From contig JABXJS010000192.1 of NCBI GenBank assembly GCA_013538855.1, positions 1 through 49,917 on the forward strand: a stretch of DNA of 49,917 bases, given 5' to 3'. Source of the DNA: Herpetosiphonaceae bacterium. GTDB taxonomy: Bacteria > Chloroflexota > Chloroflexia > Chloroflexales > Herpetosiphonaceae. Below the pieces are notes generated by a model. That model made no database searches and was not told where the DNA came from. It saw only the letters and a list, made by a program, of their open reading frames with translations. Both the position numbers and the translations under genes were made by a program. Of this stretch, positions 28,816-46,981 are shown piece by piece; the stretch's first letter is position 1; every line of letters begins with the position of its first letter.

Positions 28816-31800
28816 TTAGTGCTCAGCGCCAAGCCGCGCCTGGGCCTCGTCTGGTGAAAGGGCCTCTAGCTCCGCCAGCAGCCGGGCCAGCTCCTGCTCG
28901 TCGTGCTGCTCGGCGGCATGTTGCAGCAGCTCCAGCGCGCTATCCGCCGTCGTCGCCGCAGTGAAGCTCTCCGCCAGCTCATCGGGGTAGGCCAGCGCGA
29001 TGTGCGCAAGCAGCGTGGCGGCGATCTGCTCGACGCTGGGGCCTTGCAGCAGGTAGCTGATCGGCAGGCTCACGCTGAAAACCTGCTCGAGGCCATTTTT
29101 CAGCTCGATGCCCATGATCGAGTCAATGCCAAAATCAAGCAGCGGCCGCTGGTGCTCTAGGCCCTGTGGACTCATGCGCAGCACCTTGCCAACAACAGCC
29201 GCAACTCGCTCGGCGATCAGCGGCTGGCGCTGCGCTGGCGGCGCGTGCAGCACGCTGTGCACAAAGGTGTCCTGGCCCTCACGTGGTGCAGGCGCAGGAA
29301 GCGCCTGCTGCAAGGCGGCGAAGAACGGCGTTGCCGCTGCGGCGGGGTTCAGCGTCAGCCAGGTGGGCCAGTCCACGGCCGCGATGGTGGTCTGGACCAG
29401 CTCGCTGGTCAGCAGGCGACCGAATGCGGCCAGGGCCTGCGCGGTCGTCAGCGGCAGCATGCCCTGCGCCTGCATGTGGTCGGCGGCCCCGCTCTCCAGG
29501 GCCATGCCGGTCTCGCCCCACGGTCCCCAGTTCAGGCTCTGGCCCGGCAAGCCCTGGCGGCGGCGCTGCTGAACCAGCGCATCGAGGAAGGCGTTGCCAG
29601 CGGCGTAGTTGGCCTGGCCCACCGAGCCAAACACGGCGGCCAGCGAGGAGAACATGACGAAAAAGTCCAGCGGTGTGTCACGCAGCGCTGTGTGCAGATG
29701 CCAAGCGCCAGCAATCTTCGGCTGCAGGGCCGCGATCAGCGCCTCATGGGTCATGGTCGCGATCAGCTGATCGCGCAGCACGCCCGCCGCGTGGATCACG
29801 CCGCGAATCGGCAGGTTGGCCGCTGCGCGCTGCTGCACCAGAAATGCATCGAGCGCCGCCTGGTCGGCAATGTCGAGCGACGGCAGCAGCACCGTCGTCC
29901 CCAGCGCCTCGATCTCGCGCACCGCCTGCGTGATGCGGCCCAGGCGACTGTGGGGATCGAGCTGCGGCCAGTCAGCGCGCGGCGGTATCACGCTGCGGCC
30001 AAGCAAGATGAGCTGGCCCGCGCCGTGCTGCGCCAGCCAGCGCGCCACCGCCAAGCCCACGCCGCCAAGGCCGCCAGTGATCAGATAGCTAGCATCCGCA
30101 CGGATGCGCTGCTGCGGCTCCGCTGCGCTGAACGGCGGCTGCCGCTCCAGACGTAGCACATAGCGCTGCCCGCTGCGATAGGCGATCTGTAGCTCGTTGC
30201 CTGGATCGCATAGCGCCTGGAGCAGCTGGTCGGTCTGGGCGCTGATCGCGGCCAGGGGATCGAGATCGACCAGCGTTGGCCGTAGCTCGGGGTGCTCCAG
30301 CGCGAGCGCCTTGCCGATGCCCAGCAGCGGGGCCTGATTGAGCGCCAGCGGGGCGTCTGCGGTCACAGCCTGTGCGCCGCAGGTCACGAGCCACACGCGG
30401 GCTGTGGCGCGCTGGCTGGCGATCAGCGCCTGCAGCAGCGCCAGCGCCGCCGTGCTCGGCTCGAAGTGCTCGACATCGGGCGGTGTATCCGCCGCCGTGA
30501 TCGCGTGCAGGTAGATGATCTCGGTCGGCGTAGGCGCGCCGTCAGCGTGGCGCTCGATGAGCTGGCGCAGGGCGGCGGCATCGCGCAGATCAAGGCTCAC
30601 GCGGCCATCCGCAGCGACACTGCCAGGGGCATCAGCGCAGACAAGCGTGCAGCGGCTGCCTGCCGCCAGGAGCCGTGTGTGCAGCGTCGCGCCGAGGCCA
30701 GCGTGGTCGGCAAAAATCAGGAAGGAGCGCTGCTGGAGGTCGGAGCTGGCCGACTCCGGCGGCGCAGTGTGCCACGCTTGGGTGTAGAGCCAGTCCTCCA
30801 GCTGTGGCGGCTGCTGGCTAGCGCTGCTGAGTGGCAGACGGCGCAGCTGCAGGCCCTCGATCACAGCCGCCAGCACGCCACTATCGGTCAGCAGTGTCAG
30901 CGTCGCCTCGTAGAGACCAGCGGCGCTGCTCGGCGTGCGCACAAACTGGGTGTGGCACCAGACGCCCGTGCCAGGGTCGGCGTACACCTGCAGGCGGCGC
31001 ACGCCAACCGGCAGCAGCATCTCGTCGGCGCGGGCGCGCAGGTCTGCGGGCAGGGCGGCGGCCAGCGTTTGGAAGGCGGCATCGAGCAGCACTGGGTGCA
31101 GGGTGAAGCGCTGCGCCGTGTGTGCGGCAGCGCCAGGCAGCTCTAGACGCGCCACGGCCTCCTCCTCGCCCTGCCAGAGCGCGCTGAGCGCCTGGAAGGC
31201 TGGCCCGTACACCAGGCCGTGCTCGGCCATGGTGGCGTAGTGCGCGGCGGGCGCAACCGCCGTCGGGCAGCGCTGGCGCACAGCAGCAAGCGGCGCGTGC
31301 GTGGGCAGCGGTTGGGCTGCGACACGCGCAACCCGTCCGGTCGCATGGATCGTCCAAGCAGCGGCAGGGCCACTGCGGCTGGCGATCTGGATCTCGGCGC
31401 TGTGCGCGTCTGTCGGCGCGCTCGCCAGCTGGAGCGTGCAGGGCGCTGCGGCTGGAACCTCCAGCGCCTGCTTAAAGGCGAGGTCGCACAGCTGCACCGG
31501 CGCATGCGCAAACAGCGTCGCGGCGGCGGTGAGGCTCATTTCAACATAGGCGGCACCGGGCAAGATGGTGCGCTGCTGCACCTGGTGATCGGCCAGAATT
31601 GGCAGCGACTGCACGCTCAGCGCCGTCTGCCAGAACTGGCCCGTCCCATTCGCCGACTGAATGTGGTAGCCCAGCAGCGGGTGCTGATCGCTCTGATCGG
31701 CGGTCGTAGCGTGCGTGTGCAGCCCTGTCTGGAGGCCCATGGCGCTCAGCGGCACGCCGTCGGGGATGAGCTGGTCGTACCAGTAGCGCGCCCGCTGCCA

Positions 31801-34800
31801 CGGGTACAGCGGCAGCGCGACATACGGCGTCGGCTGCGGGTACAGCTGATCCCAGTCCAGCGTCAGACCAGCCGTGTAGAGCGTGCCCAATGCCGTGAGC
31901 AGCGCCGCGCGCTCGGGCCGATTGCGGCGCAGCGATGGAACAACACACACCTGGCGCTCGGCGTAGCGCGCTCCATCGAGGATGGCGTTGCTGAGCACCG
32001 CGTGCGGGCTGACCTCCAGAAACAGCGCGTGGCCCTGCGCCAGCAGATCCTGGATCACAGCACCAAACAGGAACGGCTCGCGCATGTTGCGCGCCCAGTA
32101 GGCGGCGTCAAGCTGCTGGCCGTCGATGGCGGCCCCTGTGACAGTGGAGATCAGCGGCACGGTCGTGGGCTGCGGCTGGAGGCGGCCGTCGAGGGCCGCG
32201 ATCAGCTCCGGCTGCAGCGCGTCCATCTGTGGACTGTGGAAGGCCAGCTCCACGCCCTGGAGCATGCGCGCGAACACGCCCTTGCGCTCCAGCGCGCCAA
32301 CCAGCCGCTCTAGCTCGGCTGTGTCGCCAGCCAGCACCACCGATGTGGGGCTGTTGCTGCCAGCGATCGCCAGCAGATCGTCGCGGCCAACCAGCAGCAT
32401 CTGCGCCTCGCTCACCGTCAGCTCGGCCAGCGCGGTCTTGCCCTGGCCAACCAACTGCTGCATCAGGCGGCTGCGCTGGTGCACAATCTGCACCGCCTCG
32501 GCCAGGCTCAGCGCACCAGCGACATAGGCGGCGCTAATCTCGCCCAGACTGTGGCCGACGACGACATCCGGCTCGATGCCCCACGAGCGCAGCAGCGCCG
32601 CCAGCGCCACCTGCACCGCAAAGATCGCCGGCTGAGTCAGCTCTGGCTCGTCGATGCGCGAGCTATCAGCCTCACGGGCCAGCTCGTCGAGCAGCGACCA
32701 TGCCACGTGCGTGCGCAGCAGGCTGTCGCACTCGCGCAGCACAGCGGCAAAGACCGGCTCCTGGGCCAGCAGCTCCTGGCCCATGCGCGCCCAGTGCGAT
32801 CCCTGGCCGGAGAAGACCCACACCAGCTTGCGCTGCTCAAAGGCTGCGGTGCGACTCGCTGAAGCAGGCGTGTCGGCCAGCTGCGCCGCCAGCTGATCGG
32901 CTAGCTCGGCGTGGGTGTCGCCGACCAGCGCCATGCGGTAGGCGTGATGGGTGCGCCGCGCTGCCAGCGTGGCGGCCAGGCTGTCGAGGCGCGGCGGCGC
33001 TGCACCCTGGAGCACGCGCAGATAGTCGGCGGCGCGCGCGCGCAAGGCCGCAGGCGTGTGGCCAGAGATCGGCAGCAGATACGGGCCAGCGGCGGGCGCA
33101 GCGCTCGGCTGGCGCACCGGCGGCTGGTACTCCTGCAGCACAACATGCGCATTGGTGCCGCCAAAGCCAAAGCCGCTCACGCCAGCCAGCGCAGGCGCGC
33201 CGTTGGTCTCCGGCCAGGGGCCATGGCGCTGCTGCACAGCCAGGGCCAGCTTATCAAAGGGGATCAGCGGGTTCGGCGTGGCGCAGTGAATGCTCGGCGG
33301 AAGCTGGCGCTTCTGCAGGGCCAGCGCAACCTTAATCACCCCCGCCACGCCCGCCGCCGACTCGGTGTGCCCAATGTTGCTCTTGACCGATCCGAGCAAG
33401 CATGGCTGATCCGCAGGCCGTCCAACGCCGACCACCCGGCCCAGCGCCTCGGCCTCGATCACATCGCCAAGGCTGGTGCCGGTGCCGTGCGCCTCGATGT
33501 ACTGCACCTGGCGCGGCTCCAGGCCCGCCGCATCGTAGGCTGCGCGCAGCACCGCCTCCTGCGACTCCTGGTTGGGGGCCATGATGCCGTTGGTGCGGCC
33601 GTCGCTGTTGACGGCGCTCCCCACGATCACTGCGTGAATGTGGTCGCCATCGGCGATGGCCTGCGCCAGCGGCTTGAGCACCACGATGCCCACGCCCTCG
33701 CTGCGCACAATCCCGTTGGCATCGGCGGCAAAGGCTTTGCAGCGCCCATCTGGCGACAGCGCGCCCGCCTTGGAAAAAAAGATGTTGCCATCTGGCAGCA
33801 AATTCACGCTCACGCCGCCAGCGATCGCCATGGTGCTCTCACCACTGCGCAGGCTCTGGCAGGCTTGATGGATCGCCACCAGCGAGCCAGAGCAGGCGGT
33901 GTTGATCGACACGCTCGGCCCGCGCAAGTTCAGGAAGTATGAGAGCCGGTTGGCCAGGATGCTTGGCGCGCTGCCCGGCCCCGAGTAGGCATCGAGCGCC
34001 GGCAGGTAGCTAAAGACCAGTCGGCAGTAGTCGCTGACGAGCGAGGCAATAAACACGCCGGTGCGGCTACCAGCGAGGCGCTCCTGTCTGATGCCCGCAT
34101 CCTCAAGCGCCTCGCAGGCGGTTTCGAGCAGCAGCCGCTGCTGCGGGTCGATGTGCGGAGCCTCGCGTGGCGAGATGCCGAAGTAGTCGGTATCGAACAG
34201 CTCAAGGTTGGGCAGAAATCCACCCCAACGGCCATACATCTTGCCTGGCGCGCTGCGATCTGGATCATAAAATGTCGCGAGGTCCCAGCGCTCCTGCGGC
34301 ACCTCATCCACGCCATCGAAGCCCGCCGACAAGCCCTCCCAGAAGGCCGCTGTGTTCTCGGCACCAGGAAAGCGACAGCTCATGCCAATAATCGCAATCG
34401 GCGCTTGCTGACGGTGCTGCACGGCGCTGGGGGCGCTGTCGCCCTGCGTGCGCTGGAGCTGTAGCGCCATATCGATTTGCTCCGGCGTGGCCAGCTGCAT
34501 GCGGATCAGAACCTCGCCCAGCCGCAGCGCGCCCTGGGCCTGCTGCTGCTGAAGCGCCTGCTGCAGCTGCTCCAGGGCGATCACCTCCGCAGCAACCAGA
34601 ATCTCGCCGAGCCGACTCCAGCGCCGCGCGCCCTCGCTGAGATAGCGCGTCAGCGCCTCAATCGTGGGATACTCCCACAGCAGCGCCGGGGCCAACTGGC
34701 GCTCCAGCACCTGCTCCAGCTTGCCCAGCAGCTCTAGCGCCAGCAGCGAGTCAAGGCCGTAGTGGCTAAACGGCAGGCGTGGGTCGATCAGCGCTGGCGG

Positions 34801-36657
34801 TACATCAAGCAGGGCGCTCAGCTGCTCGATTAGCCACGCGCGCAGGAGCTGGCTTGAGCGGCTAGCGGCCTGCTCTAGTGCGGTTGTCGAGGTCGGCGGA
34901 TCATGTGGGCGCTGGCGCTGCCAGCGATACAACACCGCGCCATCCTCGGCCTCGATCAGCTCGCGGGCGGCATGGCGCGCAATCTTGCCGCTCGATGTCT
35001 TGGGCAGCGCGCCCTTGGCAATGCCGTAGATGCTGTGCGCCTGCAGGCCGTGCTGCGTCGCCAGACATGCCTGGATCGCCGCCACCACCGCGGGCCAGTC
35101 CGCCGCATCCAGCGCAGACACCTCGTGCACAAGCACCAGCCGCTCCGCGCCGTCGGCCTCGACCGCGAAGGCCGCGCCGCCGCCAGGGATCAGCGCCGGA
35201 TGACAGAGCTCGACGTGCTGCTCGATCTCCTCTGGGTAGTGATTTTGGCCGCGGATGATCACCAGATCGCGGTAGCGCCCGACTACAAACAGGCTGCCTG
35301 CGCGCACAAAGCCCAGGTCGCCGGTGCGAAAGAACGGGCCTTCGCCGCTGTCCAAGTGCGCGTCGAACTGCTCACAGGTCGCATCCGGCAGGCCCCAGTA
35401 GCCCTGCGTCACACTTGGCCCGCGCAGCCACACCTCGCCCACCACGTTATCCGGGCAGGCTGTCAGCGTGCGCGGATCGACGACCAGCAGCTGCTGGCCA
35501 GGAATGGACGCGCCACAGCCAACCAGCATCCATCCGTCGCCATCAGCGGCACACGGTCGCACCTGCCCCTGCTTGAGCGCCGCCCGCTCGGCATAGAACG
35601 TCTCCGGCGCAGCAAAGTCGGCTGGCCCCGTCACAGTCGCGGTTGCGTCGGACATGCCATATGACGGGTAGAACGCTGCGCGCTGAAACCCACAGTCTTC
35701 GAAGGCTGCGCTGAAGCGCTCGATCACCGCCAGCCGCACTGGCTCCGCGCCATTGAGCGCCAGCGTCCAGCTGCGCAGATCAAGCTGGGCGCGCTGCTCG
35801 GCGCTAATCTTGCGCACGCACAAATCGTAGGCAAAGTTGGGCGCGCCGCTGGTCGTCGCCTGATAGCGGCTGATCAGCTCCAGCCACAGCAGCGGCCGCC
35901 GCACAAACGTCTCGGCAGCGAAGATCACCGCCAGCGCGCCCTGGTACAGCGGGTGCAGCAGCCCAAGAAACAGGCCCAGATCGTGGTACAGCGGCAGCCA
36001 CGACACAACGGTCTGGCACGGGCGCGCCGCAAAGCCTGGAAAGCTCGCTAGGTTGTGCATGATGTTGCCGTGCGTCACCATCGCACCTTTCGGCGTGCCT
36101 GTCGATCCAGAGGTGTACATCAGGAAGGCCAGCGTGGCGCTGGTGATCGGCGGCGGCTGCCAGCGGTCGCTGTCGTGCTCGGCCAGCGCTTCAATCGCCG
36201 CCCAGCGCAGCCCCGCGAACTCCGGCAGGATGGCCTGCCACTCCTCCGCCGCGGCCACATCCGCACGCGGCACCAGCACCGCCGCCACCTGCGCGTTTGC
36301 GGCGATGGCGCGGAAGCGCGGCAGCGTGCGCTTCAGACGGCTGCGCTCAAGCGGCATGGCCGGGATCGCGACCATACCAGCGTACAGACAGCCAAAGAAG
36401 GCCACAATGTAGTTCAGGTCGGTTGGGCCGCAGATCAGCACTCGTGCGCCTGGCTCGGCCAGCTCGCGCAGCCCGACCGCCACGCTGCGCGCTGCGCGAT
36501 CAAGCGCCGCGTAGCTGAGGCTGGTGATCGCGCCCGCATCGGCCACCGCGTGATAGGCCGCCTGGTGTGGCTGCTGCTGGGCGCGCAGGCGCAGCAGATC
36601 AACCACGTGCGCCGCTGAGGTCGGCGCAACGTCAACGCTCTGGATGGTGGGGGTCAT
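28816..36657 (-). CDS. Initiating hybrid PKS: FAAL-ACP-KS-AT-DH-KR-ACP
   Basis: A 2613-residue starter. A fatty-acyl-AMP ligase (about 1-590; YTSGSTGTPKG at 182-192, SWLPLYHDLGL, GAPNFAYDLCVRK) loads an acid onto ACP1 (Ser637 in GLDSLL). Two 30-residue repeats follow (682-741). KS is about 752-1178 (Cys922, His1057, His1097), AT about 1275-1600 (Ser1370; AFHS at 1473-1476 suggests malonyl-CoA), DH about 1655-1935 (His1691, Asp1859), KR about 1960-2410 (GGLGGVG at 2195, Tyr2351) and ACP2 has Ser2513. ER is absent, so a 2-enoyl chain is expected. The ATG at 36657 has AAGGAG 9 bases upstream and lies past the preceding stop; the longer frame to 36720 would overlap the glycosyltransferase. The acidic C-terminus probably docks to the Thr subunit. 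Confidence 0.95.
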   Translation of the reverse strand: MTPTIQSVDVAPTSAAHVVDLLRLRAQQQPHQAAYHAVADAGAITSLSYAALDRAARSVAVGLRELAEPGARVLICGPTDLNYIVAFFGCLYAGMVAIPAMPLERSRLKRTLPRFRAIAANAQVAAVLVPRADVAAAEEWQAILPEFAGLRWAAIEALAEHDSDRWQPPPITSATLAFLMYTSGSTGTPKGAMVTHGNIMHNLASFPGFAARPCQTVVSWLPLYHDLGLFLGLLHPLYQGALAVIFAAETFVRRPLLWLELISRYQATTSGAPNFAYDLCVRKISAEQRAQLDLRSWTLALNGAEPVRLAVIERFSAAFEDCGFQRAAFYPSYGMSDATATVTGPADFAAPETFYAERAALKQGQVRPCAADGDGWMLVGCGASIPGQQLLVVDPRTLTACPDNVVGEVWLRGPSVTQGYWGLPDATCEQFDAHLDSGEGPFFRTGDLGFVRAGSLFVVGRYRDLVIIRGQNHYPEEIEQHVELCHPALIPGGGAAFAVEADGAERLVLVHEVSALDAADWPAVVAAIQACLATQHGLQAHSIYGIAKGALPKTSSGKIARHAARELIEAEDGAVLYRWQRQRPHDPPTSTTALEQAASRSSQLLRAWLIEQLSALLDVPPALIDPRLPFSHYGLDSLLALELLGKLEQVLERQLAPALLWEYPTIEALTRYLSEGARRWSRLGEILVAAEVIALEQLQQALQQQQAQGALRLGEVLIRMQLATPEQIDMALQLQRTQGDSAPSAVQHRQQAPIAIIGMSCRFPGAENTAAFWEGLSAGFDGVDEVPQERWDLATFYDPDRSAPGKMYGRWGGFLPNLELFDTDYFGISPREAPHIDPQQRLLLETACEALEDAGIRQERLAGSRTGVFIASLVSDYCRLVFSYLPALDAYSGPGSAPSILANRLSYFLNLRGPSVSINTACSGSLVAIHQACQSLRSGESTMAIAGGVSVNLLPDGNIFFSKAGALSPDGRCKAFAADANGIVRSEGVGIVVLKPLAQAIADGDHIHAVIVGSAVNSDGRTNGIMAPNQESQEAVLRAAYDAAGLEPRQVQYIEAHGTGTSLGDVIEAEALGRVVGVGRPADQPCLLGSVKSNIGHTESAAGVAGVIKVALALQKRQLPPSIHCATPNPLIPFDKLALAVQQRHGPWPETNGAPALAGVSGFGFGGTNAHVVLQEYQPPVRQPSAAPAAGPYLLPISGHTPAALRARAADYLRVLQGAAPPRLDSLAATLAARRTHHAYRMALVGDTHAELADQLAAQLADTPASASRTAAFEQRKLVWVFSGQGSHWARMGQELLAQEPVFAAVLRECDSLLRTHVAWSLLDELAREADSSRIDEPELTQPAIFAVQVALAALLRSWGIEPDVVVGHSLGEISAAYVAGALSLAEAVQIVHQRSRLMQQLVGQGKTALAELTVSEAQMLLVGRDDLLAIAGSNSPTSVVLAGDTAELERLVGALERKGVFARMLQGVELAFHSPQMDALQPELIAALDGRLQPQPTTVPLISTVTGAAIDGQQLDAAYWARNMREPFLFGAVIQDLLAQGHALFLEVSPHAVLSNAILDGARYAERQVCVVPSLRRNRPERAALLTALGTLYTAGLTLDWDQLYPQPTPYVALPLYPWQRARYWYDQLIPDGVPLSAMGLQTGLHTHATTADQSDQHPLLGYHIQSANGTGQFWQTALSVQSLPILADHQVQQRTILPGAAYVEMSLTAAATLFAHAPVQLCDLAFKQALEVPAAAPCTLQLASAPTDAHSAEIQIASRSGPAAAWTIHATGRVARVAAQPLPTHAPLAAVRQRCPTAVAPAAHYATMAEHGLVYGPAFQALSALWQGEEEAVARLELPGAAAHTAQRFTLHPVLLDAAFQTLAAALPADLRARADEMLLPVGVRRLQVYADPGTGVWCHTQFVRTPSSAAGLYEATLTLLTDSGVLAAVIEGLQLRRLPLSSASQQPPQLEDWLYTQAWHTAPPESASSDLQQRSFLIFADHAGLGATLHTRLLAAGSRCTLVCADAPGSVAADGRVSLDLRDAAALRQLIERHADGAPTPTEIIYLHAITAADTPPDVEHFEPSTAALALLQALIASQRATARVWLVTCGAQAVTADAPLALNQAPLLGIGKALALEHPELRPTLVDLDPLAAISAQTDQLLQALCDPGNELQIAYRSGQRYVLRLERQPPFSAAEPQQRIRADASYLITGGLGGVGLAVARWLAQHGAGQLILLGRSVIPPRADWPQLDPHSRLGRITQAVREIEALGTTVLLPSLDIADQAALDAFLVQQRAAANLPIRGVIHAAGVLRDQLIATMTHEALIAALQPKIAGAWHLHTALRDTPLDFFVMFSSLAAVFGSVGQANYAAGNAFLDALVQQRRRQGLPGQSLNWGPWGETGMALESGAADHMQAQGMLPLTTAQALAAFGRLLTSELVQTTIAAVDWPTWLTLNPAAAATPFFAALQQALPAPAPREGQDTFVHSVLHAPPAQRQPLIAERVAAVVGKVLRMSPQGLEHQRPLLDFGIDSIMGIELKNGLEQVFSVSLPISYLLQGPSVEQIAATLLAHIALAYPDELAESFTAATTADSALELLQHAAEQHDEQELARLLAELEALSPDEAQARLGAEH

Positions 36658-36679
36658 TGCAATGGCTCCTTCAGTCCGC

Positions 36680-38083
36680 TTAGGCCATCGGGCGCTCAGC
36701 GGCGCGGTCGGCGTGCCCAACCATGCTCGCGGCCAGCTCCGGCTGGGCGCTGTGCTCGCCGCCGAGCAGCGCGTTGATCACCTGCAAGCCGCGCCCAGCC
36801 GCCTCTTCGCGCTGGAAGATGGCGCGCAGCGCCGCAGCGTGCTCCGCGTAGCTTGGCTCTTCGAGGATCGTCGCGATCTCTGTCTGCAGCCGCTCCTTGG
36901 CGACGCGGCGCATGCTGCCCATCAGGCCCAGCTTGTGGTAGGCGATCCGCGCCGCATAGCCTGGCTGATCGCGCGTGATCGGGTAGGCCAGCACTGGCAC
37001 GCCAAAGAACAGGCACTCCTTGAGCGTGCCTAGCCCCCCGTGGTTGATCATCAGCGCGGCGCGCTCCAGCAGCTCTGTGTGCGGTGCCCAGCGCACCACG
37101 ACCATATCGTCGGGCACCTCGCCGAGCATGGCCGGGTCAAGGTGCGGGCCAACCGCCAGCACCAGCTGCCACGCTGGCCGCTCGGCCACCGCCGCCACCA
37201 CCGCCTGGAAAAACTGGCGGCTCTTGCTGTACAGGTGGCTCTGGCTGCCCAGCGTGCAGAAGATCAGCTTGCGCTCGGGATCGAGCTTCTCCCAGGGGAA
37301 GGGCACGCTCGGCCGCTGGAGATCGATCGAGGCTTCGATGTAGTTCACGCCGCTGCTGGCTGCCCCAGGCCGGGGGAAGTCGAAGGCTTGCGGGCACAGG
37401 ATCAGCTCGGGCATCGCGGCGCTCGGGGCCAGCCGCGGATACAGCGCCGCGCGCTCCAGCCGCTCCAGCGGCACGCCGTAGCGCTGCATCACGCGCTTGA
37501 GCGCCTTCTCGAAGTTAAATCCCACCAGCAGCCCCGTCACAGCGCGGCCCATGCCGCTCATGCGCCAGGCGATCCGCGCCTTGGATCGCGAGGGCGGCGT
37601 GTCGTCGGGCACGATGTTGGTCACCACCGGCGGGTAGTTCTCGGCCTCCGGCAGATTGATGTTGATGCTCAGCAGCGCCACGCGCAGCCCCAGGTGCGCG
37701 GCCAGCAGCGCCACCGGTGCCAGGAAGCCGTCGGCGATCACCAGATCGGGCTGGCTCTCGCGCAGGTAGCGCGCAATCTCGCCCTGCTCCTGCTGCACAT
37801 CCGCACACAGCGCCGCATAAAATGGCGCTTGCGAGACCTCGCGCAGAAAGCCGATGCCTTTGCGCTTGGCCAGATTCGCCACCTGCTGCTTGCGCCAGCC
37901 CTTGCCAAATGCGCCTAGCTCGATCGCCGCAAAGGCAAAGCCCTGCGCCTGCACATAGTCGGCAAAGTCCGGCAGCCCTAGGTAGGTGATCGCATGGCCG
38001 TCGGCCTGTAGCGCGTGGGCCAGGTTGAAGCTTGGGATGAGGTGGCCCTCCTCAGGGAACATGGTGATAACGATCTTCGCCAT
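36680..38083 (-). CDS. GT1 family glycosyltransferase
   Basis: A GT-B fold transferase of 467 residues. The N-terminal MFPEEGHLIPSF places the likely catalytic base at His14, and the donor-binding domain carries the canonical NHGGLGTLKECLFFGVP and the downstream Asp-Gln pair in TRDQPG. It is therefore the better-preserved of the two GT1 enzymes of the cluster. GGAG precedes the ATG. The gene sits directly before the first PKS gene (22 bases), which ties its expression to the assembly line. It would transfer a hexose or 6-deoxyhexose from a nucleotide donor to the product. Similarity to sterol/flavonoid-type UGTs and antibiotic MGTs does not allow the donor to be named. Confidence 0.9.
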   Translation of the reverse strand: MAKIVITMFPEEGHLIPSFNLAHALQADGHAITYLGLPDFADYVQAQGFAFAAIELGAFGKGWRKQQVANLAKRKGIGFLREVSQAPFYAALCADVQQEQGEIARYLRESQPDLVIADGFLAPVALLAAHLGLRVALLSININLPEAENYPPVVTNIVPDDTPPSRSKARIAWRMSGMGRAVTGLLVGFNFEKALKRVMQRYGVPLERLERAALYPRLAPSAAMPELILCPQAFDFPRPGAASSGVNYIEASIDLQRPSVPFPWEKLDPERKLIFCTLGSQSHLYSKSRQFFQAVVAAVAERPAWQLVLAVGPHLDPAMLGEVPDDMVVVRWAPHTELLERAALMINHGGLGTLKECLFFGVPVLAYPITRDQPGYAARIAYHKLGLMGSMRRVAKERLQTEIATILEEPSYAEHAAALRAIFQREEAAGRGLQVINALLGGEHSAQPELAASMVGHADRAAERPMA

Positions 38084-38127
38084 AGATGTCTCCAGATTGT
38101 TGGTGCGCGGCAGCAGCGCCAGCGCTT

Positions 38128-39057
38128 CTACTCGTGCGTCTTGCGTTCGACCTGCGCGATGATGTGGGCCAGCCCAGCCCCGGCCGCCCCGGCCAGCGCC
38201 GCCAGCGTGTGCGCGCGCGCTAGCTCCGGCTTAGCCGCTACGGAGCGCCCCAGCAGGTTAAAGCCGGTCATAAATACGACCATGCCCGCCGGTACGTCCT
38301 CGGCCGTCGGCGGCTTGATCTTCTGGCGGTTCAGCAGCATCGCGGTCACCAGCGCGCCAAGCAGACAAAAGGCCGGTCCGGAGACGCTGACCACCGGCTC
38401 CTCGGAGTCGCGGTTGAAGATCACGCTCAGCAGCCCCACGAAGATGCCCAGGCGCAACATCGAGAAGGCCAGCGCCGGCGACTCGAGCCGCGCAATCGCG
38501 GTTCCAAAGCTCATCACGGCGGCGATGTCGCCCGCCGCGTGGGCCTTGTCGGTGTGCACAAAGGCGTGCGTGAACACGCGCCACCACTGGCCCTTGCTCA
38601 CCGCCGCCTTCTGAAACGCACCCCACTGCATCTCGCTGTCTTGGTCGTCGGTGTCGCTTAGCTCACGCAGCACCTGCACAATCGCCATCGCCAGCGCGCT
38701 GCCGTACACCGGCCACATCGCGCCAAGCTCGTCAGCGCTTGGTGTGAACAGCGCGTTCAGCCGGTAGCCGCCAGCAGGCGCTGCGGCCTTGGCCGGGCTG
38801 AAGGTGCGCGCCAGCAGTGGCGTGAGCATATCGCCAAGCGCGATGGCCGCGTCGCCGGTATCTGCGCCCGCCGTTTGAGTCAGCCGCTCTAGCTCCAGCG
38901 CGCGCGTCTTAATCTGCTCGATCTGCGCTCCGGAGGGGATGCGATCTACCAGCAGCGGCAGCTTTTCAACCAGCCCGGCAAGCGTAACCAGCGTGCTGTT
39001 CTGCTCACGCTTGAAGGCGCGGACAAGCCCAAGTAGCTCTTTTAGCGGTATGTTCAT
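38128..39057 (-). CDS. Rhomboid-like membrane protein
   Basis: A protein of 309 residues with a soluble, helical N-terminus of about 110 residues and several membrane helices after it. QWWRVFTHAFVHTDKAH (157-173) matches the L1/TM2 region of rhomboid proteases, SVSGPAFCLLGAL (224-236) matches the GxSG loop with Ser226 in the nucleophile position, and RAHTLAALAG (281-290) matches the TM6 His region with His283. The first Gly of GxSG is Ser224, and the oxyanion Asn of HxxxN is Asp177, so activity may be altered. Rhomboids cut substrates within the membrane. Its partner here is unknown; the gene is second in the cluster, between the MIO enzyme and a glycosyltransferase. Call made from motif order alone. 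Confidence 0.6.
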   Translation of the reverse strand: MNIPLKELLGLVRAFKREQNSTLVTLAGLVEKLPLLVDRIPSGAQIEQIKTRALELERLTQTAGADTGDAAIALGDMLTPLLARTFSPAKAAAPAGGYRLNALFTPSADELGAMWPVYGSALAMAIVQVLRELSDTDDQDSEMQWGAFQKAAVSKGQWWRVFTHAFVHTDKAHAAGDIAAVMSFGTAIARLESPALAFSMLRLGIFVGLLSVIFNRDSEEPVVSVSGPAFCLLGALVTAMLLNRQKIKPPTAEDVPAGMVVFMTGFNLLGRSVAAKPELARAHTLAALAGAAGAGLAHIIAQVERKTHE

Positions 39058-39106
39058 CGACCTTTTCTTTCTCTAGCTGCGGCACGCCGCCACAGGCACC
39101 GAGGCG

Positions 39107-40813
39107 CTAGAGCGCCACAATCGTGTTCAGGTCCTGCATGGTTTTGCTCACGGCCCCTAAGATCGTGCCTGGCCCGCGCATGTCGGCGACAATGCTGCGG
39201 ATGTAGTGCTCCAGCGACTGCTCATCATCGTTCCAGATCAGCGGCCGCTCCTCGGTCGGCGCACGCCCGATCACGCCACGCACCGCTGTGTACAGCGCCG
39301 CCGTGCGCGGCGACAGGTGCCGCCCGGCGTCATAGTGGCCCTTCAGCCGCTTGGTGCGCAGGTCCACCGCCTGCACCGCAAAGATCAAGGCGATGGCGAT
39401 ATACTGCTGGAAGGTCTCGATCGACTGGCGCGTGAGGTTGGCCGAGCCAAAGCCCTGGCTGTTGATGTTCTGGTTAAACTGCTCGGCGTGGGTCGGGAAG
39501 CGGTCGGCCAGCGAGTTGCCGTAGAAGGTCAGCAGCGGCATGATCGAGTTGCCCACGATCTGCAGCGCCTTCAGGCCCATGTTCACCGGCTTGGCTTGGT
39601 TGCCCACCAGCGAGGCCGGCAGCCCATTGCTAAACTCAGGCGATACCAGCAGCGAGATCTGCACGTCGAGGTGCTTCGCCAGCAGCCCCAGGTAGTAGCG
39701 CAGCTGATCCATGCCGATGCCGATGTACTGGCCCAGGAAGTTGCCGCCGTGGTAGCTGGCCGCGTTGTCCACATCGATCAGCGGGTTGTCGCTGGCCGCG
39801 TTGATCTCCACGTTGACCTGCCGCGCCACCTGCGCGATGCCCTCGACCAGCGGCCCCATGTACTGCGGCAGACAGCGCAGCGAGTAGCGATCTTGGATCA
39901 GGTCGCCGTCGCGGTAGTCGTGCTGGCCATCAAGCTCGTCGCGGATCAACTCCGACTCAGCCAGCAGGTCCAGCATCTGCTGCGCCACCCAGCGCTGGCC
40001 ATGATGCGGCTTGTGCTGATGAATAAATGGATGGAACGACTGGTTCGTGCCGCGCAGCGCCTGAATCATCAGCGCGTGGGCCTCCAGCGCCAGCGCCAGG
40101 ATGCTGCGTGCGTCGTACACGCAGTTGGCGGCAATCCCCGACATCACCGAGGTGCCGTTCATCATCGCCAGGCCCTCTTTCGGACGCAGCTTCAGCCGCG
40201 GCAGATTGAGCCGCTCCAGCGCGGTGAGGCAGTCAACGGTCTCGCCAGCAAAGTCAACGCTGAAGCAGCTGTCGGCCCCAATCAGCGCACCGGTGATGTT
40301 GATCAGCGGCACGAGATCGCCGCTTGCGCCAATCGAGCCAAGCTCGCACACGTGCGGCGTCACATTGGCGTTTAAAAACGTCATCATGCGCTTGATCAGC
40401 TCCAGGCGAATGCCCGAGGCTCCGCGCATGTGCGAGTTCGCCCGCAGCAGCATCGCCGCGCGCACATCGGCCAGCGGCAGCGGCTTGCCCGCCCCAGCTT
40501 TGTGCAGCCACACGGCATTGTTCTGCAGATCAGCCGCATGCTCTGGCGAGATAATCACGTTGGCCATGCCGCCAAAGCCCGTGGTAACGCCGTAGATCGG
40601 CCGACCAAGGGCTACCGCCTCGGCCACATAGTCGCAGGATGCATTGACGCGATCAAGAACATCCGCGTTGTCCGATAGCCGCGCCCGCACATTGTGCCGC
40701 GCAACGCGAACAACTTCGTCAATCGTGAGGTCCTCACCGTTGATGATGACGGTCTCTGCCTGGCTTTGTTCATCAACGAGCGTGCCCGAACAATAAGCAT
40801 CAGTGTTTGACAT
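39107..40813 (-). CDS. MIO-dependent aromatic amino acid ammonia-lyase or aminomutase
   Basis: At 568 residues it is a soluble, tetrameric-family enzyme using the self-made MIO cofactor from Ala163-Ser164-Gly165 (SIGASGDLVPL). Tyr74 in IYGVTTGFGG is the expected catalytic Tyr. The whole chain follows cyanobacterial phenylalanine ammonia-lyase closely (RANSHMRGASG, GNFLGQY, HAEQFNQNINSQG). The substrate-selectivity pair, Phe-Leu in that enzyme, is Leu103-His104 here; a His at this place is typical of histidine lyase and tyrosine aminomutase SgcC4. So the likely reaction is on Tyr, giving beta-tyrosine or p-coumarate. It is the first gene of the run; the ATG has only a weak GGAA upstream. The Tyr-type A domain in the line fits. 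Confidence 0.9.
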   Translation of the reverse strand: MSNTDAYCSGTLVDEQSQAETVIINGEDLTIDEVVRVARHNVRARLSDNADVLDRVNASCDYVAEAVALGRPIYGVTTGFGGMANVIISPEHAADLQNNAVWLHKAGAGKPLPLADVRAAMLLRANSHMRGASGIRLELIKRMMTFLNANVTPHVCELGSIGASGDLVPLINITGALIGADSCFSVDFAGETVDCLTALERLNLPRLKLRPKEGLAMMNGTSVMSGIAANCVYDARSILALALEAHALMIQALRGTNQSFHPFIHQHKPHHGQRWVAQQMLDLLAESELIRDELDGQHDYRDGDLIQDRYSLRCLPQYMGPLVEGIAQVARQVNVEINAASDNPLIDVDNAASYHGGNFLGQYIGIGMDQLRYYLGLLAKHLDVQISLLVSPEFSNGLPASLVGNQAKPVNMGLKALQIVGNSIMPLLTFYGNSLADRFPTHAEQFNQNINSQGFGSANLTRQSIETFQQYIAIALIFAVQAVDLRTKRLKGHYDAGRHLSPRTAALYTAVRGVIGRAPTEERPLIWNDDEQSLEHYIRSIVADMRGPGTILGAVSKTMQDLNTIVAL

Positions 40814-41684
40814 ACAGCAGTTCCATTAGCTAAAAATTCGCCGATCTAGACCAAAAATCACATCTTTAATCGTGGTGCATACCGCTTTTATACCAATGCG
40901 CCAGCAAGCCGGTGTAGGTGCAACCTTGCCGGGGCTTGGAGCCGCGGCCCACACCGCTTTTCAGTGCGCGCGATCCACCCTGCACGGGTATGCGCTTGCC
41001 CAGCCCGTAGCCTGGCGCAGGGCATAGCCCAGCTAGGGCGTGGGGACTGTGCCCCACACCTGCGCACATTGCTGGAGCGCTAGCATGAGTTGGTGTAACA
41101 AATCGCAAGAGCCGGGCTACACAACAGCGTCGTTGCTGTTTTGAGGAGCTGGGTCGTGCTTTCGCGAGCGGATCAAGCTGCCTGGCAGCGCAGCGGCCCA
41201 TAGAGCAGCCCCATGGCCCAGATAGCACGCTACGGCCGTGGGAGCCTACGCACCGCCTCCAATATCCATTTTCTATCAGCTCGGGTGGTCTTTAGAGCAT
41301 TGCACAGATTGCACTCCAGCGCGCTAAGCAGGATATGAGCAGTCGCGCACCTGTGGTACCGCCACACGCCCCATCGCTCAGCTGATCGCTGACTGTGGGT
41401 GCGCTGTTGGCGTAGCTGCGGCTGACGCTCATAGCCAGGTATCCCCGTCATATGTGCGCTTGCTCGCGCGATCAGCTGCTGCTTACACCACATCACATAA
41501 GCTCGCAGCTGACGCGCGCCGAGCAAGATTTGCGCACTGTTGCCGGGGTGAGCCATGATCTCCATGCCTGTTCGTTGGATCAACAGCCATGGGTTACGGC
41601 CCCAAGATCGTTCAGGCAGCATCGCTGCCGCTGTCGCTGAGCCGCCTGCACGCTCGCAGAGCGCAGAAGTGTGGCTCGTAGGTC
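40814..41684 (-). other. Long leader region of the cluster, no convincing gene
   Basis: This 871-base stretch lies between the first cluster gene and the putative SARP-type promoter. Two open frames in series on the minus strand (41230-41622 and 40866-41228) lack ribosome sites and have a more even third-position base use than the cluster genes, so I do not call them. A 6-bp hairpin of GTGGGG/CCCCAC (41040-41057) and an AT-rich stretch with TATAAA (about 40890-40896 on the minus strand) are the only other structures seen. The AT-rich part may hold a second, gene-proximal promoter. Confidence 0.5.
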
Positions 41685-41729
41685 ACTCTAGCAAAAGCGT
41701 GTTGACAAACTGGCGACAAATTGGCGACA
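41685..41729 (-). promoter_or_regulatory. Putative SARP operator and promoter facing the biosynthetic cluster
   Basis: Read on the minus strand, heptamers TGTCGCC (41723-41729), TGTCGCC (41712-41718) and TGTCAAC (41701-41707) are separated by 4 bases, an 11-bp pitch. Ten bases after the last one is TAGAGT (41685-41690), a TAnnnT minus-10 box. SARP activators are known to bind heptamer direct repeats at 11-bp pitch just upstream of minus-10 boxes, and a SARP-type regulator gene is adjacent. The same layout recurs at 46702-46746. Transcription would run toward the MIO gene and the assembly line. Confidence 0.6.
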
Positions 41730-41763: not shown

Positions 41764-41795
41764 GGCCGACTAGCCTGCAATACGGCTAGCCGACC
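41764..41795 (-). terminator. Probable terminator of the regulator gene
   Basis: An inverted repeat with 12-base arms (41764-41775 and 41784-41795, two mismatches, 8-base loop) is followed on the minus strand by a T-rich stretch (TTTCTTTAAAAA). It lies about 200 bases past the regulator stop codon and just before the operator-like repeats, so it may insulate the cluster promoter from regulator transcription. The T-run is interrupted, hence moderate confidence. Confidence 0.5.
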
Positions 41796-45232: not shown

Positions 45233-45261
45233 ATTATACAAGATATTTAATTTTAGGTTAA
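45233..45261 (-). promoter_or_regulatory. Sigma-70-type promoter of the regulator gene
   Basis: On the minus strand TTAACC (45256-45261) is followed after 17 bases by a perfect TATAAT (45233-45238). It lies about 150 bases upstream of the regulator ATG in the most AT-rich part of the window. No heptamer repeats like the SARP sites were seen here, so the regulator itself may not be autoregulated through that motif. Confidence 0.65.
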
Positions 45262-45482: not shown

Positions 45483-46418
45483 TCAGGCCGACTGCCGCAG
45501 CATCCAGGCCCGCGCCATCCAGCGCCAGGTGCGCTCGAGGCCCACCGCCAGCGTGGTCGTTGGCTGCCAGCCTAGCTCTTGGCGCGCCCGATGAATATCG
45601 AGCACCTGAATCGGCACATCGTGCGGCTTGGCTGGGCTGAAGCATAGGCGCAGCGGCCACTCTCCAAGCCGCTCAATCTGCCGCAGCAGATCGCTTAGCG
45701 CGGTGCCCACGCCCGAGCCAATGTTTAAGATCGCCTGCGGGCGCGGATTCGTCGCCGCCAACAGCGCCGCCCGCGCGACATCGCCAACATAGATATAGTC
45801 GCGCACGCTGCTGCCATCGCCCCAAATCTCAAGCGGCTCGCGCCGCAGCAGCCGATGCATCGCCACGCCAATGATGCCCTGCTTGCCGGTGGGGTTCTGA
45901 CGCTCGCCGTAGGCGTTGGCCACCCGCAGGATCTGATACTCCAGCTGATGCCGGTGAGCATACAGATGAATGTACTTCTCGATCATCAGCTTGGCCACGC
46001 CATGCGCCCCGATCGGATCAGTCGGGTGGTCTTCAGCGATCGGCAGACGACAGGCCGGCCCATACACCGTCCCGCCAGAGGAGAAGAAGATCAGGCGCGC
46101 AACGCCGCGCCGCACCATGGCATCTAGAATCGTCAGCGTTGGAAAGAGATTCTGCTGGACATTGCCGATCATATCCTGCTCTGCGGTCAGCGGAACGCTG
46201 GCGCTCGCTAAATGATAGACTACATCCACCCCCGCGAGCGCTGTGTCCAGCAGCGCAGCGTTGGCCGCATCGCCGATAACCTGCTCGACAGCCGCCGCAG
46301 GCGCATACCCGTGGCCTGGCTGCCGCGAGAGCACCCGCACCTGATGACCATGTGCACACAGCACATCCACAAGATGCGAGCCAATAAAGCCGCTTCCGCC
46401 AATCAGCAACGCCTTCAT
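45483..46418 (-). CDS. NAD-dependent sugar-nucleotide epimerase/dehydratase-like SDR with Tyr-to-His change
   Basis: An extended SDR of 311 residues, likely acting on a nucleotide sugar. GGSGFIGSH (7-15) binds NAD(P), FFSSGGTVYG (111-120) is the active-site strand with Ser113/114, and Lys143 is in place. The Tyr of the YxxxK motif is replaced by His139 (CAT at 46002-46004), one base from TAT. The enzyme may be inactive, use His, or act in a changed way. The ATG at 46418 has GGAGGT 6 bases upstream. It could reduce or epimerise the CDP-4-keto-6-deoxyglucose made by rfbF/rfbG. It lies apart from the main run but downstream of a SARP-like promoter, suggesting co-regulation. Confidence 0.83.
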   Translation of the reverse strand: MKALLIGGSGFIGSHLVDVLCAHGHQVRVLSRQPGHGYAPAAAVEQVIGDAANAALLDTALAGVDVVYHLASASVPLTAEQDMIGNVQQNLFPTLTILDAMVRRGVARLIFFSSGGTVYGPACRLPIAEDHPTDPIGAHGVAKLMIEKYIHLYAHRHQLEYQILRVANAYGERQNPTGKQGIIGVAMHRLLRREPLEIWGDGSSVRDYIYVGDVARAALLAATNPRPQAILNIGSGVGTALSDLLRQIERLGEWPLRLCFSPAKPHDVPIQVLDIHRARQELGWQPTTTLAVGLERTWRWMARAWMLRQSA

Positions 46419-46981
46419 CGCGGCACCTCCGCTCCTGTGCGCTCGGTGGAGTGTGTGCATCCCATCGCCATGCCCTATCTAGACGCTCAAGCCTGCCCCA
46501 GCTTAAGCGTCCACTCTGCCGCCGCGCCTGTTCAGCAGCATCAACCCACCGCGCACTGTCTGACCCCTGCATCTGCCCAGCACCACTGCGCACACCAGCA
46601 GCATGCGCCACCCCTACGCTCATGCAAACGCTTGTGCCGTGCGCACTCATGCGGCGGCTGCCCGCAGGCGGTGTATCCCTATTAGCAAGCCTAGTCCAGC
46701 CACAATAGCAGAGCAATGCCGACAAACTGGCGACAAACTGGCGACATTGTTGGTGCAGATACGCGCTGCGCTCGGTGCGCCCAGCCACACCAACGCCTGT
46801 TGCAGGCTAATCAGGCGGCAAGCAATCCCGCCCAAGCGCGCGACTGCTGCACGGCGCAGGCGCATGCAGCCCGCCGACCGTAGCGCAACCACAGCGCAGC
46901 ATTTCAAAAAAACTTCCGCCAGCAGGCGCACGTGTGCTAGGATCGGCAGAACGTCGTCAGCTCTGTAGAAGGAGTGGCACC
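46419..46981. other. Divergent intergenic region with SARP-like site
   Basis: This gap lies between the minus-strand SDR gene and the plus-strand acetyltransferase gene. It contains the second triple-heptamer promoter (46702-46746), which leaves a leader of about 280 bases before the SDR ATG. A TAGGAT (46937-46942) could be the minus-10 of the plus-strand gene, though no good minus-35 partner is seen. No gene is called here. Confidence 0.5.
46702..46746 (-). promoter_or_regulatory. Second putative SARP operator and promoter, facing the SDR gene
   Basis: On the minus strand TGTCGCC (46740-46746), TGTCGCC (46729-46735) and TGTCGGC (46718-46724) are spaced by 4 bases, then exactly 10 bases lead to TATTGT (46702-46707), a TAnnnT box. 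Even the 4-base spacers between heptamers are alike (AGTT). Layout, spacing and orientation equal the site at 41685-41729, which makes chance unlikely. It would place the SDR gene under the same activator as the cluster. Confidence 0.62.

Follow-up and report, generated by a model that had tools for sequence, protein, structure and literature searches.

Heptamer repeats flanking a large SARP gene very probably form the switch of a peptide-polyketide cluster in a Herpetosiphonaceae bacterium

The biosynthetic cluster described here very probably carries its own DNA switch, a set of repeats at which an AfsR-like activator turns on a glycosylated peptide-polyketide cluster. We read the two repeat regions, sites A and B, as operators with core promoters that belong to a cluster-situated SARP encoded between them and that work by AfsR-like activation; on sequence, a structural model and analogy together, we regard this reading as highly probable. 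In actinobacteria, SARPs with heptamer operators are familiar switches for antibiotics. The host lies outside the actinobacteria, as the initial annotation had held, and the relatives include Herpetosiphon aurantiacus. The window is the whole analysed stretch of 49,917 nucleotides from contig JABXJS010000192.1 of Herpetosiphonaceae bacterium, and its features are collected in Table 1.

On the minus strand, site A (41729-41685) reads TGTCGCC AATT TGTCGCC AGTT TGTCAAC ACGCTTTTGC TAGAGT, and site B (46746-46702) reads TGTCGCC AGTT TGTCGCC AGTT TGTCGGC ATTGCTCTGC TATTGT. Site A had been described before as two copies of TGTCGCC and one of TGTCAAC at 11-bp pitch, followed after 10 bases by TAGAGT, and this is confirmed. 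In both sites 10 bases separate the last heptamer from TAnnnT, and TGC stands before TAnnnT. The minus-strand order is site B, epimerase gene, weak promoter, SARP gene, hairpin, site A, leader, lyase gene and remaining cluster; the two sites flank a single SARP gene, with site B upstream of the epimerase gene.

Table 1. Features around sites A and B, in minus-strand order (window positions).
Feature	Position	Strand	Remarks
Operator B: TGTCGCC, TGTCGCC, TGTCGGC	46718-46746	minus	11-bp pitch
-10-like TATTGT of promoter B	46702-46707	minus	TGC just before; predicted transcription start near 46695
NAD-dependent epimerase/dehydratase gene, after site B	45483-46460	minus	likelier start ATG at 46418
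Sigma-70-like promoter TTAACC-17-TATAAT before SARP gene	45233-45261	minus	weak: 1 found, 0.7 expected in shuffles
Large SARP regulator, 1029 aa	41997-45086	minus	winged helix ~20-113, BTAD 117-257, NB-ARC ~296-427, TPR
Terminator-like hairpin between SARP gene and operator A	41764-41795	minus	region has 2 terminator-like sites vs 1.0 expected in shuffles
Operator A: TGTCGCC, TGTCGCC, TGTCAAC	41729-41723, 41718-41712, 41707-41701	minus	exact 11-bp pitch; positions -51, -40, -29
-10-like TAGAGT of promoter A	41685-41690	minus	TGC just before; spacing as in site B, relatives and AfsR box; predicted transcription start near 41678
Leader of ~865 nt after promoter A, apparently noncoding	40814-41684	minus	predicted start to lyase start codon
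Aromatic amino acid lyase, first clear gene past site A	39107-40813	minus	
Rest of cluster	1050-39057	minus	rhomboid protein, glycosyltransferases, PKS and NRPS modules, thioesterases, sugar genes, ABC transporter

The genome statistics are based on genome-wide pattern searches and on individual loci. Across the 6.3-Mb genome, TGTC-N7-TGTC-N7-TGTC has two matches, which are sites A and B, and the reversed control has none. The composition-based expectation is 0.39 for the TGTC triple, and 0.0005 when two of the heptamers are full TGTCGCC. Triple repeats followed by TAnnnT, 17 bp past the start of the last repeat, were counted at each pitch in 257 kb of sequence surrounding the full set of 14 BTAD genes: at 11 bp there are three (site A, site B and one beside another BTAD gene), at pitches 7-10 and 13-16 none, and at pitch 12 four.

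The geometry can be compared directly with a known complex. In AfsR-afsS a 22-bp box of two 11-bp repeats spans -40 to -19, and the upstream duplex holding the -10 element ends at -7 (PMC10936776); from these values it follows that the downstream repeat starts 17 bp before the -10. The step from the start of the last repeat to TAnnnT, at -12, is also 17 bp at site A, at site B and in the relatives, which places the last two repeats at -40 and -29 and the additional, first repeat at -51. The pitch had been proposed as typical of the SARP family, and the geometry of the site indeed equals that of the published AfsR box. Both sites show the marks of SARP promoters: heptameric direct repeats at 11-bp (or 22-bp) pitch, a fixed distance from the 3' repeat to the -10, and repeats overlapping the -35 region. 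A search for a sigma-70 -35/-10 pair near site A found none. In general, the layout of the two sites appears to match what would be expected of a SARP-dependent promoter.

The gene between the sites is of the SARP/AfsR type, in agreement with the initial annotation. The protein matches BTAD (E=6.6e-20), NB-ARC/AAA and TPR domains. Its N-terminus has an OmpR-type winged helix followed by BTAD, according to both domain matches and the model, and its C-terminal part has the NB-ARC/STAND ATPase and TPR regions of AfsR-type large SARPs. The best sequence match in the PDB is AfsR (E=1.5e-16). An AlphaFold2 model of residues 1-265, built from a 15-row alignment, has a mean pLDDT of 90, and when compared with PDB folds it matches, at E<0.001, AfsR transcription complexes and EmbR only. 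Against the AfsR equivalog model NCBIfam NF053617 the protein scores 79 bits, where the cut-off is 1430, so it is a relative of AfsR and not AfsR itself. Among the conserved DNA-contacting residues of AfsR (Q48, W74, P79, T88, R94, K95), Q48, W74 and R94 are kept, while P79, T88 and K95 are replaced. AfsR T88, R92 and K95 correspond to H82, L86 and H89 here; in the AfsR complex these three touch bases or phosphates, T88 and R92 being base-reading. Since the base-reading residues are replaced, recognition must differ from that of AfsR in detail.

A search of genome contigs with the whole SARP protein found no relatives, and for this reason an alignment of the N-terminal part was used. The closest SARPs are encoded on pHAU01 of Herpetosiphon aurantiacus and in two MAGs, one from Herpetosiphonaceae and one from Chloroflexota; at each of these loci, TGTC pairs are spaced 11 bp apart and followed by TAnnnT at +17. 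In H. aurantiacus the candidate TGTC promoters number three (G007:C2 27614, 35547 and 49403). Further, a Chloroflexaceae MAG has a triple repeat about 30 bp past its SARP gene. Across 82 genomes of the order the pattern has 21 matches, against 4 for the reversed control. It is present in 9 of the 12 genomes of the order that have the SARP subfamily and in 3 of the 70 others (Fisher p=1.5e-7); two of the nine (G038 and G049) look like chance, and dropping both gives p=2e-5. A broader scan accepted any pair of 8-mers with 7 of 8 positions identical and TAnnnT at +17; with it, versions of the TGTA and TGTG type turned up next to SARPs in Anaerolineae, in Caldilineaceae and in other families of the order.

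The position of the sites also recurs. At 14 of 30 SARP loci, a set that includes some loci taken because the pattern was already present, a pair of this kind at pitch 11 follows the SARP stop codon on the same strand at a distance of up to 600 bp (0.08 expected), and eleven other pitches give one match in total in the same zones. Among the loci chosen for the SARP alone and with enough flank (L244-L250, L252, L253), 5 of 9 have a site; these come from four genera in three families and are thus related, but not copies of one case. In some members of the subfamily (e.g. L165, L188, L190, L252) no site was detected although the 3' flank is long enough. The position frequencies of 24 sites give TGT[C/A][G/A][A/C]CA, where TGT and TAnnnT were fixed by the search patterns, and the C at -34 and at -23 in part; the T at -31 was not fixed in this way, and 24 of 24 sites have it. 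A degenerate pattern (a TGTM..C pair plus -10) shows no excess over 400 genomes of the phylum (67 matches vs 59 for the reversed control); its value is confined to the neighbourhood of SARP genes. Together with the AfsR-type neighbour and the AfsR-box geometry, the recurrence beside related Chloroflexota SARPs supports the operator reading of the initial annotation.

Sites of the TGTCGCC/TGTCAAC kind go with H82 in the regulator, and TGTCGAC with V82/Q86. No helix code of one residue emerged, however: TGTA sites occur with both R82 and H82. A small protein with the motif SFLxRxW...W..xxExxQSG and no Pfam match is encoded near SARP operators of several Chloroflexota (L163:13637, L172:12842, L192:5770, L247:6063). 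In a MAG of 71% completeness (G055) there are seven pattern matches on separate contigs (L192-L196 and others), mostly of the TGTC[GA]AC type, two of them around a SARP-like fragment, possibly a wider SARP regulon.

It should be considered whether the sites are instead Pho boxes or serve a different response regulator of the OmpR type. PhoB/PhoP have an OmpR-type winged helix and use 11-bp direct repeats just before the -10, and the E. coli pho box consists of TGTCA repeats, to which TGTC at 11-bp pitch looks similar; moreover, AfsR and PhoP have a binding region in common at the Streptomyces afsS promoter. However, the repeat of sites A and B is not found at the phosphate transport genes of this genome: next to pstS there is an 11-bp repeat of TTAACA type but no TGTCGCC pair, which makes a Pho box unlikely, and the pst regions of H. 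aurantiacus and of G061 are without TGTC[GA][CA]C pairs. The sites track SARP genes and not genomes at large, as the 3 in 70 genomes without the subfamily indicate, yet pstC is present in every genome tested for it. We consider it very unlikely that the sites are Pho boxes. Near pst genes, 11-bp repeats of the TTAACA/TTAACC type were seen at L268:5568 and L269:2158, and these are likely the Pho boxes of Herpetosiphon-like Chloroflexota.

With 14 BTAD genes in the genome, the repeats might also be operators of a different BTAD protein or another regulator encoded elsewhere, while the adjacent SARP would control something else. Against this, in many genomes this type of repeat accompanies the SARP subfamily and sits adjacent to its gene, and a further BTAD gene here, C148, carries a different repeat, TCTGAACGATC, at its divergent promoter. 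To assignment elsewhere we give just as little credence as to the Pho box. The C148 triple (L069:9882-9926; G000:C148 ~32881, + strand) reads [GG/TC/TC]TGAACGATC at 11-bp pitch, with TACAGT at the 17-bp step, and lies in the divergent promoter of a lipoprotein-like gene. From its sequence it is likely a second SARP operator of the genome with a different heptamer. Reading it as an AfsR-like box on the other strand (CGTTCA) was rejected, as no -10 follows in that direction. Finally, chance repeats without a regulatory role are extremely improbable: the motif is short, its two-repeat form gives chance matches in genomes without SARP and there is no global excess in the phylum, but the two triple sites in 6.3 Mb both lie beside one SARP gene, and the pitch and -10 step are conserved across families.

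For operators of the SARP encoded between them, the repeats, their geometry, the predicted fold and the conservation beside related SARPs are what we build on; how binding, activation, start sites, signal and operon length fit together we infer as follows. Two or three SARP monomers would bind next to each other, each on one heptamer. The monomers at -40 and -29 would cover a promoter that lacks a good -35 and would keep RNA polymerase in place by way of sigma region 4 and the core enzyme, in the manner of AfsR at afsS; the shared geometry and fold are the reason for this proposal. The NB-ARC/TPR part would gate activation in response to a signal. Transcription from site A would run into the aromatic amino acid lyase gene and the peptide-polyketide operon, and that from site B into the epimerase gene, perhaps on into the SARP gene, which would create a positive loop. 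The weak ordinary promoter may supply basal SARP.

The terminator-like hairpin just ahead of site A speaks for the operator reading, whereas the ~865 nt that separate the predicted start from the lyase start codon speak against it, as do the replaced DNA-contacting residues and the subfamily members in which no site was detected. In the leader after promoter A there is no evident gene: its ORFs (130 and 120 aa) are without the codon-position G+C pattern of the neighbouring genes. The leader has no Rfam family match and encodes none of the small proteins found after the site in relatives. Intergenic gaps in the cluster are mostly below 100 bp, with one of 1.5 kb, and because they are mostly short, a single transcript that starts at site A could cover a large part of the cluster. 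The polyketide synthase carries a ligase-type loading part. The lyase and the ligase-ACP loading part (28816-40813) suggest a starter of cinnamoyl or coumaroyl type and a glycosylated peptide-polyketide product.

The second operator, the terminator before site A, the ~865-nt leader and the changed DNA-contacting residues all go beyond the initial annotation. A SARP-activated promoter is a known kind of element, but one apparently undescribed outside actinobacteria; full-text searches of open-licence papers turned up no description of a SARP operator from this phylum, Chloroflexota. What appears to be new is the lineage, the heptamer sequence, the altered recognition helix and the repeated occurrence of the site directly 3' of the regulator gene. 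We further think it fairly probable that a Chloroflexota branch of large SARPs has an operator code of its own, TGT[C/A/G][G/A][A/C]C at -51/-40/-29, with a recurrent module of regulator, operator and target and a helix without the base-reading residues of AfsR. If so, it would become possible to read from sequence what many unstudied Chloroflexota regulators act on, and pairs of helix and heptamer could show how SARPs choose DNA. If the operator reading itself is right, a short searchable code would link cluster-situated regulators to promoters in a phylum with many unstudied clusters, and give a direct way to switch such clusters on, along with a natural series of helix and heptamer pairs for work on DNA reading by this class of regulator.

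Among known systems, AfsR of S. coelicolor is likewise a large SARP, in which a winged helix and BTAD are joined to nucleotide-binding and TPR parts. Its afs box, in the afsS promoter, also has 11-bp repeats that begin at -40 and -29 and overlap a poor -35 (PMC10936776). The differences are the phylum, the heptamer (TGTCGCC here, CGTT(T/C)AT in the AfsR box), the third repeat at -51 and the replacement of T88, R92 and K95 in the DNA-contacting helix; further, AfsR is a pleiotropic regulator, whereas the SARP here sits in a gene cluster. SARP operators of two or three heptamers are well known in Streptomyces, as in the DnrI, ActII-ORF4 and PimR sites, which resemble those described here in having three heptamers, 4-nt spacers and the activator gene inside the biosynthetic cluster (PMC10972967, PMC5930380). 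However, the heptamer sequences differ, and the main PimR operator is clear of the -35. Unlike in the Streptomyces cluster SARPs, a second operator flanks the regulator gene here, and in relatives the site is usually past the SARP stop codon. From the Pho boxes of PhoB/PhoP the sites differ in following SARP genes, the candidate repeat at pstS being of TTAACA type. EmbR of Mycobacterium tuberculosis has the same N-terminal winged helix and BTAD fold, but ends in an FHA domain where the SARP here continues with NB-ARC and TPR.
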